Below are positions 3,392-39,288 of a DNA stretch of 39,288 nucleotides, piece after piece. Origin of the DNA: a virus. How positions within the stretch are numbered: the stretch's first letter is position 1; every line of letters starts with the position of its first letter. The position numbers were made by a program, and so were the translations under genes. The DNA lies in the IMG/VR virus record IMGVR_UViG_3300025154_000230, positions 1-39,288 of that record; one strand, 5' to 3'. The notes under the pieces are model-generated. The model saw nothing but the letters and a program-made list of their open reading frames with translations. It did no database searches and was not told where the DNA came from.

Positions 3392-3435
3392 GCTAACCTT
3401 AGCCTATTGACAGGGTTAAGATTATGCAGTATAAT
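3392..3435 (+). promoter_or_regulatory. Consensus sigma70 promoter with upstream GCTAACCTTAGC element
   Basis: -35 TTGACA (3407-3412), 17-base spacer, -10 TATAAT (3430-3435). The palindromic GCTAACCTTAGC (3392-3403) ends three bases before the -35. The same element lies four bases before the -35 of the promoter at 38790. Transcription would enter a roughly 340-base leader and then the small genes at 3783-4184. Confidence 0.85.
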
Positions 3436-3441
3436 GTATGT

Positions 3442-3782
3442 ATTAAGGATTTAAAATAAAAGTCTTTAATGGTGGAGCGATTGGATTTATCGGGATAACA
3501 TTGACGCGCCGACCTATGGCGGGTATGAATGGTAAACCGATTAAAAAAGTTATTTGACAACAATTAAAAATCTTCTGCTGGTATCCCAAAAATAAAAGAG
3601 ATATAGCAAGGCCTACGGCCTGAGATGATAGCAATTTATTTTTGAACGGAACGAGCGGATAATAAAGAATAAGCGTTAAGCTAAAGCTTAGCGACACTAT
3701 CGGAGGCGTTGAGTTATCCCGCTTGAGCGGTCAACGCTTAACGCTTCCGATAAAATATTATCAATTAAAATATAAAAACAAT
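3442..3782 (+). ncRNA. Long structured leader / possible regulatory RNA
   Basis: About 340 bases between a perfect promoter and the next start, with no convincing gene. Hairpins seen: AGGCC/GGCCT (around 3606-3620) and a nested stem TATCGGA (3698-3704)/TCCGATA (3746-3752), GCGTTGA (3706-3712)/TCAACGC (3731-3737) and CCGC/GCGG (3719-3730). An alternative ten-base pairing, AAGCGTTAAG (3671-3680) with CTTAACGCTT (3737-3746), excludes part of that stem. This could be a switching leader or a small RNA; no known riboswitch class is recognised. Confidence 0.4.
3671..3688. repeat. Dispersed repeat copy in leader
   Basis: AAGCGTTAAGCTAAAGCT; its first ten bases can pair perfectly with 3737-3746. Confidence 0.7.
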
Positions 3783-3953
3783 ATGACAAAAAAAGATTAT
3801 ATTATGTTGGCAAAATTAGTAAATTCTCATTTATTGTATGTATCTGTAAAGAATGTACCAGAATTTATTCAAAATTTAGTCAAAGAATTAAAAAAAGATA
3901 ACCCACGGTTTGATGAAGTAAAATTTAAAAAAGCTTGCGGAATTATTAACTAA
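3783..3953 (+). CDS. Small conserved-type phage protein, unknown function
   Basis: 56 residues from ATG 3783 (MTKKDYIMLAKLVN). A longer version using TTG at 3723 would run through the structured leader and is unlikely. The layout, MTKKDY..LAK at the N-terminus and NPRFDEVKFKKACG at the C-terminus, resembles short proteins common in phage early regions, but I cannot name the family. It is soluble and helix-rich. It is the first gene downstream of the promoter at 3407, so that promoter probably drives it. Confidence 0.65.
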   Translation: MTKKDYIMLAKLVNSHLLYVSVKNVPEFIQNLVKELKKDNPRFDEVKFKKACGIIN

Positions 3954-4191: not shown

Positions 4192-4217
4192 AACCGGCCA
4201 ATAGGCCGGTTTTCCTT
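4192..4217 (+). terminator. Rho-independent terminator
   Basis: AACCGGCC (4192-4199), loop AATA, GGCCGGTT (4204-4211), then TTTT..TTT. Ends the 3783-4184 small-gene unit. Confidence 0.85.
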
Positions 4218-4261
4218 TGCGCTCTTTTTTCTTTTGTGAATTCATAGGGGTTTTATACTAC

Positions 4262-4289
4262 TTGACAAAAAAGAGAAAAGTGTTATAGT
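4262..4289 (+). promoter_or_regulatory. Sigma70-like promoter upstream of structured RNA
   Basis: -35 TTGACA (4262-4267), 16-base spacer, -10 TATAGT (4284-4289). No coding sequence follows on the plus strand for 1.3 kb, so the product would be the RNA candidate starting near 4296. Confidence 0.65.
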
Positions 4290-4295
4290 TTTCGG

Positions 4296-5075
4296 CCTAT
4301 TCTTATGGGAATTTCAGAAATGGGGTAGTGCGGGAGTTTTTTTTAAATACCCACGGGCAAAATTTTCTCTCTCCTTTCCTTTCCTTTTTTTTCATTTCAC
4401 CATTTCAATTTGTCAATGGGGGAGTAGGCTTTAAATAATACCCATTCGTATATATAATAATATATACACCCCAAATCTCTCTCCATATTCCCAAAACCGC
4501 TCTCCCCAAACCCAAATTCCGCCAATCTAATATTATTTTTTTTTAATCTCACATTACTGTACTCCCTTTCTCTTTCTTAACCAAGGAAACGGCTTTAACG
4601 GGTTGCCGATTCAACGGCGATTCAAAAAAAAACAAAACAAAACACTAATGTTCTCCTATTAGTCAAAAGGGTTGACTTTTAGAACAACTCATTGTGTAAT
4701 ATTAAATTACACTATGCGTATCCAATTATTTGCGTTCTCTCCTTTTAAAACATTACGAAGATGTCTTAAAGCTTAAAAAGTTTATGGCGCTGTTACCGTT
4801 AGAATAGATTTGCCACTAATCAAGGAATTGATACGATGACCTTGAAAACAAAATTGGATTTCTATTCTCGCTTATCCGCCAACTTTTTAATAGGACGGGG
4901 TTTCCCTAAGCCGTTATAGGGACAGTTCAAGCTTTATTATGACGGTTGGGAGTGGCAATAAAACTTGTGTTTCTTTCTTGAACCGGAGGAATCCGTGTTC
5001 CTTAGGTTATAGGCTTTTCTGTCAGGCGACCCCTATAATTTGAGTTGCAGTCGCCGGTTAGTAAAAACTAACCAT
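4296..5075 (+). ncRNA. Large structured RNA candidate with pseudoknots
   Basis: No supportable plus-strand gene, but dense perfect complementarity. Stems: 4773-4782/4881-4890 (10 bp), 4786-4789/4877-4880, 4801-4808/4861-4868 (8 bp) and 4821-4825/4840-4844, all nested. Then 4810-4817 pairs with 4951-4958 (8 bp) outside that domain, a pseudoknot. Also 4925-4931/4977-4983, 4905-4910/5001-5006, 5025-5030/5050-5055 whose loop 5031-5038 pairs with 4914-4921 (second pseudoknot), and 5056-5061/5068-5073 at the 3' end. The 5' half has hairpins at 4415-4446, 4448-4467, 4644-4663 and 4694-4712, with pyrimidine-rich single strands. Size and complexity recall large phage RNAs such as GOLLD or ROOL; I cannot assign it to either. 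Strand is inferred from the promoter at 4262; the 5' limit is uncertain. Confidence 0.6.
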
Positions 5076-5076
5076 T

Positions 5077-5304
5077 TTAAATCCCTAAATTTAAGGAATT
5101 AAAACGGGAAGTCTTTTTAGCTTCTTCAGTGGTAATTTTAGCTTTTTCCACCAGATATATTTGTCGGCAATTCGGGCAATAAAGGTGATAAGTGAAACAA
5201 TAAGCTCTTTTTAATCTGCTTCTTGTATCTTTTGTTATTCTTTTAATTACCGGAAAATTGCATTTTCTGCATAAATCTCCTTCTTTTTCAATTTTTCTTT
5301 TCAT
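5077..5304 (-). CDS. Small zinc-ribbon protein
   Basis: 75 residues with two CxxC pairs: LCRKC near residue 12-16 and YCPNC near 43-47, the typical four-cysteine zinc knuckle, and many basic residues around them. It probably binds nucleic acid. It is the only minus-strand gene in this part and is convergent with the structured RNA; its stop lies four bases from the RNA's last hairpin. The ATG (5304) is preceded on its own strand by the AAGCGTTAAGCTAAAGCTC repeat, as for the gene at 2243. Confidence 0.65.
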   Translation of the reverse strand: MKRKIEKEGDLCRKCNFPVIKRITKDTRSRLKRAYCFTYHLYCPNCRQIYLVEKAKITTEEAKKTSRFNSLNLGI

Positions 5305-5418: not shown

Positions 5419-5430
5419 GCTAACCTTAGC
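5419..5430. promoter_or_regulatory. GCTAACCTTAGC palindromic element, third copy
   Basis: Same 12-base element found just before the -35 boxes at 3407 and 38790, here without an adjacent -35/-10. It lies between the large hairpin and the terminator-like hairpin, 128 bases upstream of the terminase promoter. Confidence 0.6.
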
Positions 5431-5441
5431 AAATAACGAAA

Positions 5442-5477
5442 AAAACCACTCGGTCTTTTTACAGACTTTGTGGTTTT
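5442..5477. terminator. Terminator-like hairpin (stronger on minus strand)
   Basis: AAAACCAC (5442-5449) pairs with GTGGTTTT (5470-5477); an inner stem GTCT/AGAC lies within. A T-run follows on both strands, seven Ts on the minus strand. Confidence 0.5.
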
Positions 5478-5546
5478 AATCGATGAAGATACTTTTCAGT
5501 ACTAAAATATAACCTCATAAGATGATTATAGCATACCCTTAAAATC

Positions 5547-5575
5547 TTGTCAATAGCCTTAAAGGGTGCTATATT
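5547..5575 (+). promoter_or_regulatory. Late-operon promoter before terminase
   Basis: -35 TTGTCA (5547-5552), 17-base spacer, -10 TATATT (5570-5575). ACCCTT (5535-5540) and AAGGGT (5562-5567) flank the -35, a possible operator. Start codon of the terminase is 28 bases downstream. Confidence 0.7.
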
Positions 5576-5602: not shown

Positions 5603-7678
5603 ATGCCCGTTATTAAGTCAAGTACCTCTGTTCTTACGGAGGATTTATACAAGCTGAAAGAAAAGCCGGATAAAACCTTACCCGGAACTTTTATAAGCCA
5701 AATGGAGAAATCTCCCCGCTTTCCGGAGGCTAAAGAGTTTATTTGGAAAAATATTCGGCTGACCCACAAGAAATTGTTTTTGGCGATGAAAGAAAAGTTT
5801 TCGGAGATTCCTTTTTCTTATCAGACCTTATATAAGATTCTTGCTCGGATGAAGATAGAGGAGGGGATAAAAAGCGATGAAGAAATGTATGCGCTCCAAA
5901 AAGACGAACAGGAAAGGATTTTAGGGGAAAAGGAAAATCAAATGGCGCGATTTCACGAACAGAGAAAAAAACATTCAGTGGCTATTAAGCTGGCGGCGAT
6001 GGGACGAGTTAAACATTTTGGCGTAGCGCCCGATATTTTAAGACGAGGACAAAACGACCCGGCTTATTTTGCCGAGAATATTTTAGGGGTAAGGCTTCAT
6101 CCCGGCCAGAAATTCTTTTTGCGCTTATTCCTTATTTTTAAGAAATTGGTGTTCGCGCCCAGCAATCAATACGGCAAATCTTTTATGGTGGCCGTCATTC
6201 ATATTTGGGCCGCCTTTTATAAATTCAATTTAAAGGGTTGGGACGAAGACGAGAGTTGGATAACCAATAAGGGGCTGGTCTTTCAAAAGTATAAGACGGT
6301 CAATATGGCTCCCCGCTTGGAACAGGCTTCGCAGGTTTATGAGTATATTCTTTTAATTCTTCAATCCCAATTCTTTTGGGATAACGACCCGGACGGTGTC
6401 AAATCCGATTATATCCATAATGAATGCCGCTTGCAGAACTTTTTGATTGAACCCTTAAAACTGCCCTCCCGTTATTTGGTGTCGGGCAAACCGATTATTT
6501 ATTCCAATGGCGCGGAAACTAAAATCGTTTGTACTAAAGGGGACAAGGGCGCGATGATTCAAGGCCAGCAATTCGGCTTGATATCAATGGACGAATGCGC
6601 TTTGGAGCCGGGTTTAGAAGATATGGTGATGGCGCGCTTGCCGTCCCGGCTGGTCAAGCACGACGGCACCCTCTGCTTAATCAGCACGGCGGACGCGGAC
6701 GCGCAGGAATCCGGCGCGGAATCCCAATCCAACACTTATGAGTTTTACGAGAAATTGGTAATGACCGGGATGAATAATACCGAACCGTATCATTCTTTGT
6801 TCGCGGAATTATGGGAGGAAAAAGGCTCTCGTTCAATCACCGATATTTTAAATGAAATCAAATCCAAGGCGGGCGAAGAAACGGATACTTGGAAATCTTT
6901 TCTTGGCAAGATGACGGATAATATTTTCTTGTCTAAAAAGATAATCGCCAAGAAAAGAAAAGAGATTGAGGAAGATTCTCCGGAAATGGCTCAACAGATT
7001 TTTGAGGGCATTTTTGTCGGCAATGTGGGCAAGTACTTTAACGCGGACGCGGTTAAGAATTTGTTTTCCGGCGATTGGGAAACCCAAGAAGCAAAATCCG
7101 GCCGAACTTACTGCATTGGCTGCGATTTTGCGGCCGGTAAGGTTTTTTATACGGTTTATACGGTTTGCGATATCACTGATTGGCGGGACGGCTTTGTTCC
7201 CATTGTTAAGATAATCAGGTATCGGGGAAACTCCAAGAACCCGCAAAATCAGATTCAAGAATTGATTGAATTGGCCGAGGAGTATAATGACGCGGATGTG
7301 GCCATTGATGCCAGCTCTTTAGGCGGTTCAGTGATTCAAAGCTACCTTGACACAATCAATACTTTCCCCAATGGTTTCCGGGCGGAAGGCAAAAAAGAGC
7401 TGATGTTTGCATTGCGAAAGTTTTTATTGTATAATAATAACGAAGGTAAATTCAGAGCGCCAGCGCCTGATGGAAAGCTTAATGCTGACCCGTTTATGGC
7501 CTTAAAAAGGGAATTAAATGCGTATCGGGAAGATGATAAGAGGTTGATAAAAGATTGCGTGATGAGCCTCGGTCTGGTAGCGTGGCGTTTGGAACAGCTG
7601 GTTCAAGAAGACGATGTGCCGATTATGACTTATTTTGACCCGCTTTCTTCGGCGGAAAGCGTCCAATTCTGGAATTAA
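5603..7678 (+). CDS. terL: Terminase large subunit
   Basis: 691 residues, the DNA-packaging motor of the phage. An N-terminal extension of about 150 residues precedes the ATPase. Walker A is APSNQYGKS at about residues 185-193, Walker B ends in ISMDE at about 325-329, and the coupling motif CLISTAD follows near 350. The nuclease part has the RNase H-like GCDFAAG near 505-511 and the second acidic patch VAIDASSLGG near 564-573. The length is at the upper end for the family because of the N-terminal helix-rich part. ATG 5603 has no Shine-Dalgarno. It is the first gene of the late operon, with the portal directly after; no small subunit is adjacent. Confidence 0.93.
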   Translation: MPVIKSSTSVLTEDLYKLKEKPDKTLPGTFISQMEKSPRFPEAKEFIWKNIRLTHKKLFLAMKEKFSEIPFSYQTLYKILARMKIEEGIKSDEEMYALQKDEQERILGEKENQMARFHEQRKKHSVAIKLAAMGRVKHFGVAPDILRRGQNDPAYFAENILGVRLHPGQKFFLRLFLIFKKLVFAPSNQYGKSFMVAVIHIWAAFYKFNLKGWDEDESWITNKGLVFQKYKTVNMAPRLEQASQVYEYILLILQSQFFWDNDPDGVKSDYIHNECRLQNFLIEPLKLPSRYLVSGKPIIYSNGAETKIVCTKGDKGAMIQGQQFGLISMDECALEPGLEDMVMARLPSRLVKHDGTLCLISTADADAQESGAESQSNTYEFYEKLVMTGMNNTEPYHSLFAELWEEKGSRSITDILNEIKSKAGEETDTWKSFLGKMTDNIFLSKKIIAKKRKEIEEDSPEMAQQIFEGIFVGNVGKYFNADAVKNLFSGDWETQEAKSGRTYCIGCDFAAGKVFYTVYTVCDITDWRDGFVPIVKIIRYRGNSKNPQNQIQELIELAEEYNDADVAIDASSLGGSVIQSYLDTINTFPNGFRAEGKKELMFALRKFLLYNNNEGKFRAPAPDGKLNADPFMALKRELNAYREDDKRLIKDCVMSLGLVAWRLEQLVQEDDVPIMTYFDPLSSAESVQFWN

Positions 7679-7683
7679 CGAAT

Positions 7684-9438
7684 ATGTTAAATCCGTTTAC
7701 TTGCGAAAAAGAAGAAACAATGGAATCTTCCATTGCTTTGAGTTTGCTTAAAACGAAGTTTAATTCGTCCGGACTTTTATTTGACGCTCAAAGAAGAATT
7801 GATTTGTATAAAAAATATTTGGACTATTACTTGGGCGACGCGGACAAGTATATGGTCCGGGAGCCGGGCCGCCACAAAGAACAAGTTAATCTGGCGCGCC
7901 GCGCCGTTTCAATGATTGCCCACTTTATGATGGACGAATTTCCGGAAGTCCGCGTACCGCGGGATTCGGAAATTATGGCCGGGTATGATATCAGCAATAA
8001 AGAAATTCCTAAGTTTTACGAAGAAGTCAATCGCGCCGAAGCGCTGGGGAAAATTATTCGGGAAAAGGTGTTGGATGAAACCTTACTGAATGTGCTGGAA
8101 TGCCAGAACGGTTTGGAAACCGGCATTTGTTTGGGCGATACCGTTCTTTATCATCCAATGGGAGAAAAAGATGTTTTGAATATTCAGAATATTTTTCCGG
8201 GTCATTGCCGAATGGTTTATTCTTCCTCTAAATTTGACCGGCTTCAAGAAATTTTTATCATCACTCTCCAAAACGCTTCCAGTATTTTAGACCAATACGG
8301 AGTAAATGAGAAATTTAATTTCTCCGACACCGCTTTTAGCGCTTCCAATATCTGGGACTTTGGTTTATTGCAAGGTTCGGACTTGGTTCCGGTCATCACT
8401 TATTACAATGAAAAATATACGGTCAAGTTTACCGAGAAAAATATTTTAAAAGAAACATCTTTGCACGGATTTTCCGAACTGCCGTTTAAAATGATTCCGT
8501 CTTTCCAGAGGCCGTTTCAACCCAACGGCATTTCTTTATTGGCCGATTATATTCCTTTAATCAATCGATACAATGAAATGATTTCCGATGAAATGGATAT
8601 CGTTAAAATTTATTCCAAACCCAAGGTGATTATTTCCAACGCGACGCAGAAAGAAGTGGACGCGCTGCGCGCGATGTGGAAAAGCGGCATTGTGGTTTCC
8701 CGCAATAATATCAATGTTCAAATGTTCGAGCCGAAAGGCAATGTTTACAATATGGAGCAAGCGCTTCACCGCGTCACTGATGAGATAATGAAAGTGCTGG
8801 GTCTGCCTCCGGCCGTTTGGGGAACGCCCGAAGGGTCAATCAACACCGGCGTTTCTTTAACTGTCCAGTACACGCCCACCTTGCAGATTGCCCAGACGAT
8901 TTATAAAAATTGGCGTCCGGCTTTAAAAGGTATTTTATCTTTTTATTTAAAAGAATTGGAAAAAAGAAATAAGGAATATTCTTATGAGATTGACGGCAAG
9001 AAAAAGACCGTTAAATACAAAGAATTGATTAACGGCAATTATTCCGTAGAACTGAAACCGCGCTTCCGCTTCCCGCGCGATGAATCGATTATGATTTCCA
9101 ATGTGGTTAATAAGACCGACCGTTTGGGCTTGCCTCGGACAATCGCTTTGGAAGAACTGGGCTATCGCTCGCCCGAGGATGTGATGACTTTGAAAGCGTG
9201 GGAAGACTTCAACCCGATTCTTTCTCCGGAAAAGATGTCCGATATGGTGATTAAAATGCAACAGAATCAAATGGCCTTGCAGGAAAAGATAACGGCCTTA
9301 ACTCCTCCTCAACCTACCCAGCCTTCCGGCGGCACAATGCCTAATCCGGAAAATATGGGACAGGGCAATCCGACCAATCAGCCGGTTGCCCCCACCGGTC
9401 CGGTTCAGCCCGGCTCCGTGGTAATGCCTCCTCAATAA
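7684..9438 (+). CDS. Portal protein
   Basis: 584 residues; forms the dodecameric ring at the capsid vertex through which DNA is pumped. Supporting features: N-terminal YYLGDADKYM..LARRAVSMIAHFMMDEFPEVRVP (helical wing), the central SPP1-gp6/T7-gp8-like stem region with MSDEM-type helices, and the late LGLPPAVWGTPEGSINTGVSL stretch typical of portals. The C-terminal 60 residues are a proline/glutamine-rich tail (PPQPTQPSGG..), probably disordered inside the capsid. It lies five bases after terL, the usual order. No Shine-Dalgarno at ATG 7684; an internal ATG at 7720 is a possible alternative. Confidence 0.88.
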   Translation: MLNPFTCEKEETMESSIALSLLKTKFNSSGLLFDAQRRIDLYKKYLDYYLGDADKYMVREPGRHKEQVNLARRAVSMIAHFMMDEFPEVRVPRDSEIMAGYDISNKEIPKFYEEVNRAEALGKIIREKVLDETLLNVLECQNGLETGICLGDTVLYHPMGEKDVLNIQNIFPGHCRMVYSSSKFDRLQEIFIITLQNASSILDQYGVNEKFNFSDTAFSASNIWDFGLLQGSDLVPVITYYNEKYTVKFTEKNILKETSLHGFSELPFKMIPSFQRPFQPNGISLLADYIPLINRYNEMISDEMDIVKIYSKPKVIISNATQKEVDALRAMWKSGIVVSRNNINVQMFEPKGNVYNMEQALHRVTDEIMKVLGLPPAVWGTPEGSINTGVSLTVQYTPTLQIAQTIYKNWRPALKGILSFYLKELEKRNKEYSYEIDGKKKTVKYKELINGNYSVELKPRFRFPRDESIMISNVVNKTDRLGLPRTIALEELGYRSPEDVMTLKAWEDFNPILSPEKMSDMVIKMQQNQMALQEKITALTPPQPTQPSGGTMPNPENMGQGNPTNQPVAPTGPVQPGSVVMPPQ

Positions 9439-13361: not shown

Positions 13362-13385
13362 ATGGAGCTTTAGCTCTGATTTATG
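13362..13385 (+). promoter_or_regulatory. AGCTTTAGCT hairpin with four-codon mini-frame before a start
   Basis: GGAGCTTTAGCTC (13364-13376) is a short palindrome placed directly before ATG 13383. An upstream ATG-GAG-CTT-TAG (13362-13373) makes a three-residue frame. The same arrangement appears twice at 30375-30420. Confidence 0.5.
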
Positions 13386-18556: not shown

Positions 18557-19507
18557 ATGGCTGATTCAGTAATTCAGAGTGGCGTACAAACTCAAGTAGT
18601 GGCTGAATTTTGGAATGAACAATTCCTTAAGCGCCTTGAGGCCGGTTTAATCCTAAAAGGATTTGGCCGGACGGGAAGTATCCCTGAAAATGAAGGTGAC
18701 AGAGTGCATTGGCTCCGTGTGGAGAACATTGCCGATGTCACATCTTCTCTTTCAGAAGGTTATGACCCGGATGCCCAGTATGTTTCAGCAACCGACTTGA
18801 CTGCAGACCTGCAGGAGGAAGGCAGCGCTATCCGCGTTGCGACTCGTTTGATGAAGACTTCGGTGCGGGGAACTCTTACCGAGTTTACCAACGCCTTGCT
18901 CTATCAAGCGCGCAAACGGATTGACACTGTCCTCCGAGATGTGGCGTTCGGCGGTTCAAGTAAGTACTATGCTTCAGCTTCCCAGTGGGAAAGCGCGGTA
19001 GCGACCACGGACAAATTGTCCGGAATAGATGTGTCTACGGTTGTAGCATATCTGCGCAACAAATCTGCTCCTACGTTCTCGGACGGGTTCTATGTCGGGT
19101 TAATTCACCCGTATGTGGCTCACGATTTGAGGCGCGATGGCGATTGGTTGGATGCTTCGAAGTACGTCGAATCCGGTGTAAAACGGATTTATCAGGGGGA
19201 AATTGGAACCCTGCACGGCGTGCGATTCATCGAAACAACGCAAGCCCCTATTGACATCAATAGCGGGTCGGCGGAAAACGCAACTTCCGGTTCAGCTTTG
19301 GACGTGTATAAAACGCTTATTTTCGGTCCTGACTTCTTCGGTGTTTCCGAATTATACGGCTTGAAGATAATCACCCGCATTCCTGCTCCGGAATCCAAGT
19401 TGGAGCAATGGGGTACAATCGGTTGGAAATCTAGTTTCGCAACTCGTAGACTTAATGAAGATTTAGCGTATTTAATATATTCTTCTTCTTCCTTGAGTAC
19501 ATTATAA
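18557..19507 (+). CDS. Major capsid protein, N4-gp56 family
   Basis: 316 residues. The family signature is clear: an N-terminal FWNEQFLKRLEAGL helix, GDRVHWLRVENI, the long strand EGSAIRVATRLMKTS (E-loop/spine region), IHPYVAHDLRRDGDWLDASKYV near 175-196 and GEIGTLHGVRFIETTQAPI near 205-225. It builds the icosahedral shell with the HK97 fold. Expression is probably high: promoter at 17945 and a hairpin/pseudoknot directly after the stop. No Shine-Dalgarno is present (AACAACATAGTATGG), so translation may be coupled to the scaffold gene 20 bases upstream. Confidence 0.9.
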   Translation: MADSVIQSGVQTQVVAEFWNEQFLKRLEAGLILKGFGRTGSIPENEGDRVHWLRVENIADVTSSLSEGYDPDAQYVSATDLTADLQEEGSAIRVATRLMKTSVRGTLTEFTNALLYQARKRIDTVLRDVAFGGSSKYYASASQWESAVATTDKLSGIDVSTVVAYLRNKSAPTFSDGFYVGLIHPYVAHDLRRDGDWLDASKYVESGVKRIYQGEIGTLHGVRFIETTQAPIDINSGSAENATSGSALDVYKTLIFGPDFFGVSELYGLKIITRIPAPESKLEQWGTIGWKSSFATRRLNEDLAYLIYSSSSLSTL

Positions 19508-38773: not shown

Positions 38774-38817
38774 GCTAACCTTAGCCGATTTGACAAAACT
38801 TATGTATCGTATATAAT
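38774..38817 (+). promoter_or_regulatory. Sigma70 promoter with upstream GCTAACCTTAGC element
   Basis: Element 38774-38785, -35 TTGACA (38790-38795), 16-base spacer, -10 TATAAT (38812-38817). Same layout as the 3392-3435 promoter. Drives the amidoligase operon across the contig join. Confidence 0.8.
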
Positions 38818-38850: not shown

Positions 38851-39288
38851 ATGGAAAAAGAAATAACAATACCGGAAACAACACCGGAAATTATTTTACA
38901 AAATCCGGTGGAATTAAAAGCTAAAAAAGAAAAGAGAAAAATTAAAATTGAAATATACCGGAAAGACGGCGACACTTATTTACAATTTGAATTTGATTTA
39001 AAACTGGAAAACTTTTTTGCCAAGAAAAAACACGAGATAAGAGAAAGTACAAATTGGCCGGAACTAAAATTTTATTTTATACCGGACATACTGGAAAACA
39101 AGAACTACCAGCAATTATTGAGCGCGTATAATCTTTTTGACGATTATGGGTCAGCCTTGACGCGCAACAGCACTTTTAATATCGCCTTTTTACGGACGGT
39201 CGGAGGCAAGGGAAAAATTTTAATCAATCACGATATGCCTTTTGCGACTTGTTCGGAGGGTATCCGTAATATTGTACGCTTTGTAAAA
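38851..39288 (+). CDS. Unknown 166-residue protein (5' part; ends at 196)
   Basis: ATG 38851 to the right edge gives 146 codons; after the circle is closed, another 20 codons and a stop follow at 134-196, 166 residues in all. The N-terminal 30 residues are Pro/Glu/Lys-rich and probably disordered (MEKEITIPETTPEIILQNP). The rest is alpha/beta with LQFEFDLKLENFF, LKFYFIPDI and GKGKILINHDMPFA. No family is recognised. It is the first gene after the 38790 promoter and directly upstream of the amidoligase and glutaminase, so a substrate, carrier or accessory role in that pathway is plausible. Confidence 0.75.
   Translation, partial: MEKEITIPETTPEIILQNPVELKAKKEKRKIKIEIYRKDGDTYLQFEFDLKLENFFAKKKHEIRESTNWPELKFYFIPDILENKNYQQLLSAYNLFDDYGSALTRNSTFNIAFLRTVGGKGKILINHDMPFATCSEGIRNIVRFVK
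39163..39288. repeat. Right copy of terminal direct repeat
   Basis: Exact copy of bases 8-133. Joining the two copies gives a circle of about 39.16 kb and restores the 166-codon gene that begins at 38851. Confidence 0.9.

Follow-up and report, generated by a model that had tools for sequence, protein, structure and literature searches.

A plausible noncoding transcription unit between two converging gene units of a divergent, unclassified phage

The DNA analysed here (the window) is an entire IMG/VR virus record, 39,288 bases long, from a phage without classification. Its ends carry a 126-nt repeat with 100% identity (8-133 and 39163-39288), so that the record, although classed as linear, very probably represents the complete genome (~39,155 bp). 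The gene set is that of a tailed phage, with a large terminase gene, terL (5603-7678, phrog_2), a portal gene (7684-9438, phrog_64), and a major capsid protein gene (18557-19507, phrog_1357); none of the proteins scanned was recognised as a small terminase, and the 39-kb genome has no tRNA genes. The phage proteins are very divergent, with relatives of the capsid protein reaching only 37% identity and no relatives of the terminase in phage records, IMG/VR, or GTDB genomes. We also note that an amidoligase gene adjoins a glutamine-amidotransferase-like gene at 200-2217.

Upstream of terL is a gene-free block (4212-5075), and the layout from left to right is a rightward operon, a bidirectional terminator, a rightward promoter, the noncoding block, a weak terminator-like hairpin, and a leftward ORF that has a promoter of its own. 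The bidirectional terminator-like hairpin (4192-4211, AACCGGCC-AATA-GGCCGGTT) has T tails of unequal quality, the minus-strand one (ATCTTTTTTA) being the better. The promoter at 4262 proposed in the initial annotation is borne out as a motif, a sigma-70-type TTGACA-16-TATAGT with an extended -10 TG (4262-4289, plus strand, 11/12) and an expected start at ~4296. Genome-wide there are 12 promoters scoring at least 11/12 where 2.4 are expected, and five scoring 12/12 where 0.2 are expected, and this excess indicates that such promoters are real features of the genome. At the far end of the block, the hairpin at 5056-5073 (plus strand, GGTTAGT-AAAA-ACTAACC) is followed by a weak tail, ATTTTAAAT, and lies four bases short of the end, at 5077, of a 75-residue ORF convergent with the proposed RNA (5077-5304, minus strand). 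This ORF is zinc-binding-like, with a weak match to phrog_2306 (E 0.0004) and a match to Pfam Phage_zn_bind that is below the cutoff.

The lack of coding capacity previously ascribed to 4296-5075 holds. Codon scores across 4212-5075 range from -1.1 to ~0 in nearly all six frames, compared with +0.36 +/- 0.14 for the phage's genes, and the six-frame translation of the block has no Pfam match, the ground on which a decayed gene was rejected as its origin. The sole exception in 4212-5075 is a weak, marginal 51-residue ORF on the minus strand (4397-4552), and apart from this the block has no coding potential on either strand, as expected of structured RNAs in general. A replication origin within the block was also considered and rejected, as no repeat array or iterons were found there and the DnaA-box-like sites fall outside it. 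These sites, TTATCCACA at ~3347 and 38571, are near divergent or regulated promoters and mark a possible origin region. Two further elements are scattered through the genome: GTTAAGCTAAAGC is a dispersed repeat in intergenic DNA (2224, 3177, 3247, 3306, and 3675 on the plus strand, and 5315 on the minus strand), two copies of which are immediately 5' of start codons (2243 and 5304), and GGGGCTTTAGCCCTAATTTATG is a small hairpin-like element at 13363, 30377, 30398, and 5325 that is twice found directly at start codons (13383 and 30418).

The block had been described as a large structured RNA with interlocking pseudoknots, and all five of the pairings given for it are perfect: the 10 bp stem P1 (4773-4782/4881-4890, 10/10), the 8 bp stem P2 nested within it (4801-4808/4861-4868, 8/8), the two claimed pseudoknots K1 (4810-4817/4951-4958, 8/8) and K2 (4914-4921/5031-5038, 8/8), and the hairpin GGCGAC/GTCGCC (5025-5030/5050-5055, 6/6) with CCCTATAA in its loop. 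There is also a GNRA-tetraloop hairpin, CGGA-GGAA-UCCG (4984-4995), whose tetraloop is present in the plus strand only. Perfect Watson-Crick stems of at least 8 bp are in excess, with 19 in 4296-5075 relative to 8.7 +/- 3.1 in dinucleotide shuffles (none of 100 shuffles had as many), and five in 4741-5075 relative to 1.1. Roughly half of these 19 come from T-runs matching A-runs, or from AT repeats, within 4330-4740, and about one 8 bp perfect match is expected by chance in 335 nt, which applies to each of the claimed pseudoknots.

The interlocking itself is not supported. When P1, P2, and the 5025/5050 hairpin are forced with both crossings reserved (-76.0 kcal/mol) and the two crossing duplexes are then added (-11.1 and -8.8), the total is -95.9 kcal/mol before any pseudoknot penalty, compared with -92.4 kcal/mol for the nested optimum. 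Pseudoknot penalties are usually several kcal/mol each, and with these the nested fold wins over the crossed one. K1 is energetically neutral at best. K2 is the weaker of the two and is disfavoured, because the sequence GTTATAGG occurs twice (4913-4920 and 5006-5013) and the second copy is the better partner for 5031-5038, forming a 13 bp local hairpin with 5032-5044 (5000-5013/5032-5044). A simple test for crossing helices gave a mixed result, unusual in 4741-5075 and ordinary in 4650-5075. A functional role for the fold or the pseudoknots of the block is unsupported by these data.

The folding stability of the two parts of the proposed RNA differs. The 5' half (4296-4740, plus strand) is pyrimidine-rich with a poorly defined fold (z ~-2.0 to -2.4), and its 4300-4600 segment is purine-rich on the minus strand; the structured half (4741-5075) has z values of -2.8 to -3.4 on the plus strand and -3.8 to -5.2 on the minus strand. 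A structured RNA should fold more stably than both shuffles and the genome background; the z values relative to shuffles are -2.8 to -3.9, yet of the 118 windows, largely coding, that represent the background of this genome, 12 are more extreme than the plus-strand 4741-5075 at z -2.8, which ranks 13th of 119, whereas only two are more extreme than the minus strand. Compared directly, 4741-5075 has z -3.9 on the minus strand and -2.8 on the plus strand, and the minus-strand structure is better defined (structural entropy 0.62 versus 0.79-0.90). The plus-minus difference is not significant relative to shuffles (z +0.7), such that G-U wobbles favouring one strand, the signature of strand-specific structure, are not evident here, in contrast to the region 3442-3770 described below (z -4.1). 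The folding data thus favour neither strand, nor do they indicate selection on plus-strand RNA structure.

A structure signal that is equal on both strands is what inverted repeats in DNA would give, and one reading, which we regard as a serious contender albeit somewhat unlikely, is that the block is a neutral or DNA-level spacer between convergent units, or a cis-acting DNA site for packaging or regulation near the large terminase gene. The stems would then be ordinary inverted repeats of AT-rich DNA, and any transcript incidental. The ordinary rank of the plus-strand z value within the genome, the lack of a homologue in the collections searched, and the position of the block just upstream of terL in a genome with no recognised small terminase gene are all consistent with this, but a spacer accounts poorly for a strong promoter motif aimed into the block and for the excess of perfect stems, and a DNA site might have been expected to contain a repeat array or iterons.

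The leftward unit raises a second possibility. It has a perfect promoter (5525-5553, minus strand, TTGACA-17-TATAAT with TG, 12/12), and ~80 nt past it there is a terminator-like hairpin with seven Ts. The intervening segment is a well-formed candidate short RNA of ~80 nt (5437-5518, minus strand) with a 5' hairpin followed by a AAAACCAC...GTGGTTTTTTT terminator (5482-5437), and 5430-5518 on this strand folds with z -4.3; we consider it likely from these motifs that 5553-5437 specifies a small leftward RNA. Transcription from 5553 could instead continue through this attenuator or small RNA (5518-5437) and the zinc-binding-like ORF, making of the block a structured 3' UTR or noncoding RNA on the minus strand that ends at 4211-4192. 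The minus-strand z values, the lower structural entropy, the purine-rich 4300-4600 segment, and the terminator tail ATCTTTTTTA agree with such an RNA. Nonetheless we think it unlikely, since the seven-T hairpin stands so soon after the promoter, the GNRA tetraloop and the 4262 promoter suit the plus strand, and the strand difference is not significant.

The initial annotation raised the GOLLD and ROOL classes of large phage RNAs and called for Rfam covariance-model searches including HEARO, none of which gave a match. At gathering scores there are no Rfam matches in the whole window, and at E values up to 10 the locus returns only low-scoring noise. Neither the GOLLD model (RF02032) nor the HEARO model (the IscB omega RNA) has a match in the whole record at E <= 10, and no IscB-type nuclease was recognised beside the block. 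The ROOL model (RF03087) likewise has none at E <= 10, and the phi29 pRNA model (RF00044, 118 positions) has no match either, although both were also silent in control genomes and these two negatives are weak taken alone. GOLLD and ROOL are usually encoded near tRNA islands in phages and prophages (PMC12286853), and there is no tRNA array here. GOLLD is, like the block, phage-encoded, noncoding, and of ~800 nt, and ROOL, whose P1-P19 fold is conserved and covaries, is phage-encoded, noncoding, and hundreds of nucleotides long. The block, however, lacks a covariance match to either and tRNAs nearby, and it further differs from GOLLD in that its pseudoknots are not supported. Self-assembly is a hallmark of both classes. 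Packaging RNAs of the phi29 type are also phage noncoding RNAs encoded near packaging genes, but phi29 pRNA is much shorter and the present phage has an ordinary terminase (phrog_2).

The locus also has no relatives in the collections searched. No homologue was found by blastn against phage and plasmid records, by IMG/VR protein searches with the terminase, portal, 1519-residue virion protein, and capsid protein, or in GTDB genomes with the terminase as the only query. An alignment search with the capsid protein recovered 80 distant loci with no more than 37% identity, the best of which has a different gene order. One DNA pattern derived from the block RNA gave a single chance match inside a gene, a further one gave 69 chance matches, all without hairpin context, and patterns from the phage's dispersed repeat and operator retrieved no homologue. 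MW202801.1 at first seemed to have 2.2 kb of noncoding DNA ahead of its terminase, but unannotated ORFs lie in this gap and the record was set aside. On these comparisons the block is an orphan among the collections searched.

A large ornate phage RNA of ~780 nt on the plus strand, either GOLLD/ROOL-like in behaviour or of a new class, and with functional pseudoknots, therefore seems to us improbable. The noncoding character of the block, its own promoter and terminator-like end, the stems found exactly as listed, and a fold better than that of shuffles are what such an RNA would have, but there is no Rfam family match, the pseudoknots are not favoured, the 5' half is poorly structured, and there are neither tRNAs, nor a plus-strand bias, nor relatives in the collections searched. 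Beyond size and phage origin, nothing speaks for GOLLD/ROOL-like behaviour specifically.

The explanation that we tentatively prefer is that the block encodes a phage-specific noncoding transcript of antisense type between two converging units. Promoter and terminator motifs, the lack of coding, and the stem excess are directly observed, and a noncoding transcription unit here is plausible; transcription, its end point, and an antisense or insulating action are what we infer from them. The block would separate the rightward small-ORF operon, which ends at the 4192-4211 terminator, from the leftward zinc-binding-like unit (5304-5077). The 4262 promoter would most likely give rise to an untranslated plus-strand transcript of up to ~780 nt, which may stop near 5073, just before the end of the convergent ORF, and by converging with leftward read-through from 5553 could keep the two units apart. 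What we propose is thus an antisense or insulating action rather than a GOLLD/ROOL-like ornate particle. In favour of the plus-strand transcript we count an 11/12 promoter with TG directly after a terminator, the noncoding block that follows, the 5056-5073 hairpin, the stem excess, and folding more stable than that of shuffles; against it are the weak terminator tail, a minus strand that folds at least as well, the strand-difference z of +0.7, and a minus unit that has its perfect promoter at 5553 and, at 4211-4192, a terminator rich in Ts. Convergent antisense or intergenic phage transcripts similarly start at their own promoter, contain no ORF, and run over the 3' end of the unit that faces them, although transcription of the block is a prediction, for one strand or the other.

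Processive antitermination can be RNA-based, as with the HK022 put RNAs, and by analogy the 4262 transcript might be a long late-operon leader that reads through to terL at 5603. A strong rightward promoter upstream of a 28-kb block of late genes and two intervening terminator-like hairpins (5056-5073 and 5437-5482) would fit such a leader, but terL has a nearer promoter (5547-5575, 10/12, TG) and the convergent ORF intervenes, making this highly improbable.

Some 600-900 bases upstream of the block, at 3442-3770 on the plus strand, is a structured RNA with better support. It is preceded by a perfect promoter (3407-3435, plus strand, TTGACA-17-TATAAT, 12/12), begins with an 11 bp hairpin located exactly at the expected start site of that promoter, and ends with a long hairpin at ~3698-3752. 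The region has z -6.6 and a well-defined ensemble, and the -100.8 kcal/mol of the plus strand compares with -73.2 for the minus strand, a difference (z -4.1) not reached in any of 100 shuffles; the most extreme window of the genome, 3364-3698 on the plus strand, has z -7.4. There is no Rfam match for 3442-3770, the part of the genome with the strongest and most strand-specific structure. It precedes a small operon (ORFs at 3783, 3973, and 4050) bounded by the terminator at 4192-4211, and so has the appearance of a long structured leader, or of an RNA released from such a leader by processing. These three ORFs have no Shine-Dalgarno sequence, and there is an A-rich AAAACAAT upstream. The dyad GCTAACCTTAGC is just 5' of the promoter (3392-3403), with further exact copies at 5419-5430 and 38774-38785, and looks like an operator, as two of the three copies are immediately before the -35 of 12/12 promoters. 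Among the three RNA candidates (3442-3770, 5518-5437, and 4296-5075), the block is the weakest.

Few large phage RNAs have been described, most of them without a known function, and a new class would be valuable if true. There is a slim chance that 4296-5075 (or the structured 4650-5075), perhaps together with 3442-3770, represents one, transcribed early by way of host-type promoters, in which the GTTATAGG copies at 4913-4920 and 5006-5013 would act as a switch by competing for CCTATAA at 5032-5038. As it stands, the block is an orphan noncoding segment in a deeply divergent phage, and it cautions that, within 300-800 nt, chance comes close to accounting for perfect stems and for 8 bp matches over long distances. 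The practical gain also includes a pointer to the better RNA candidate at 3442-3770.
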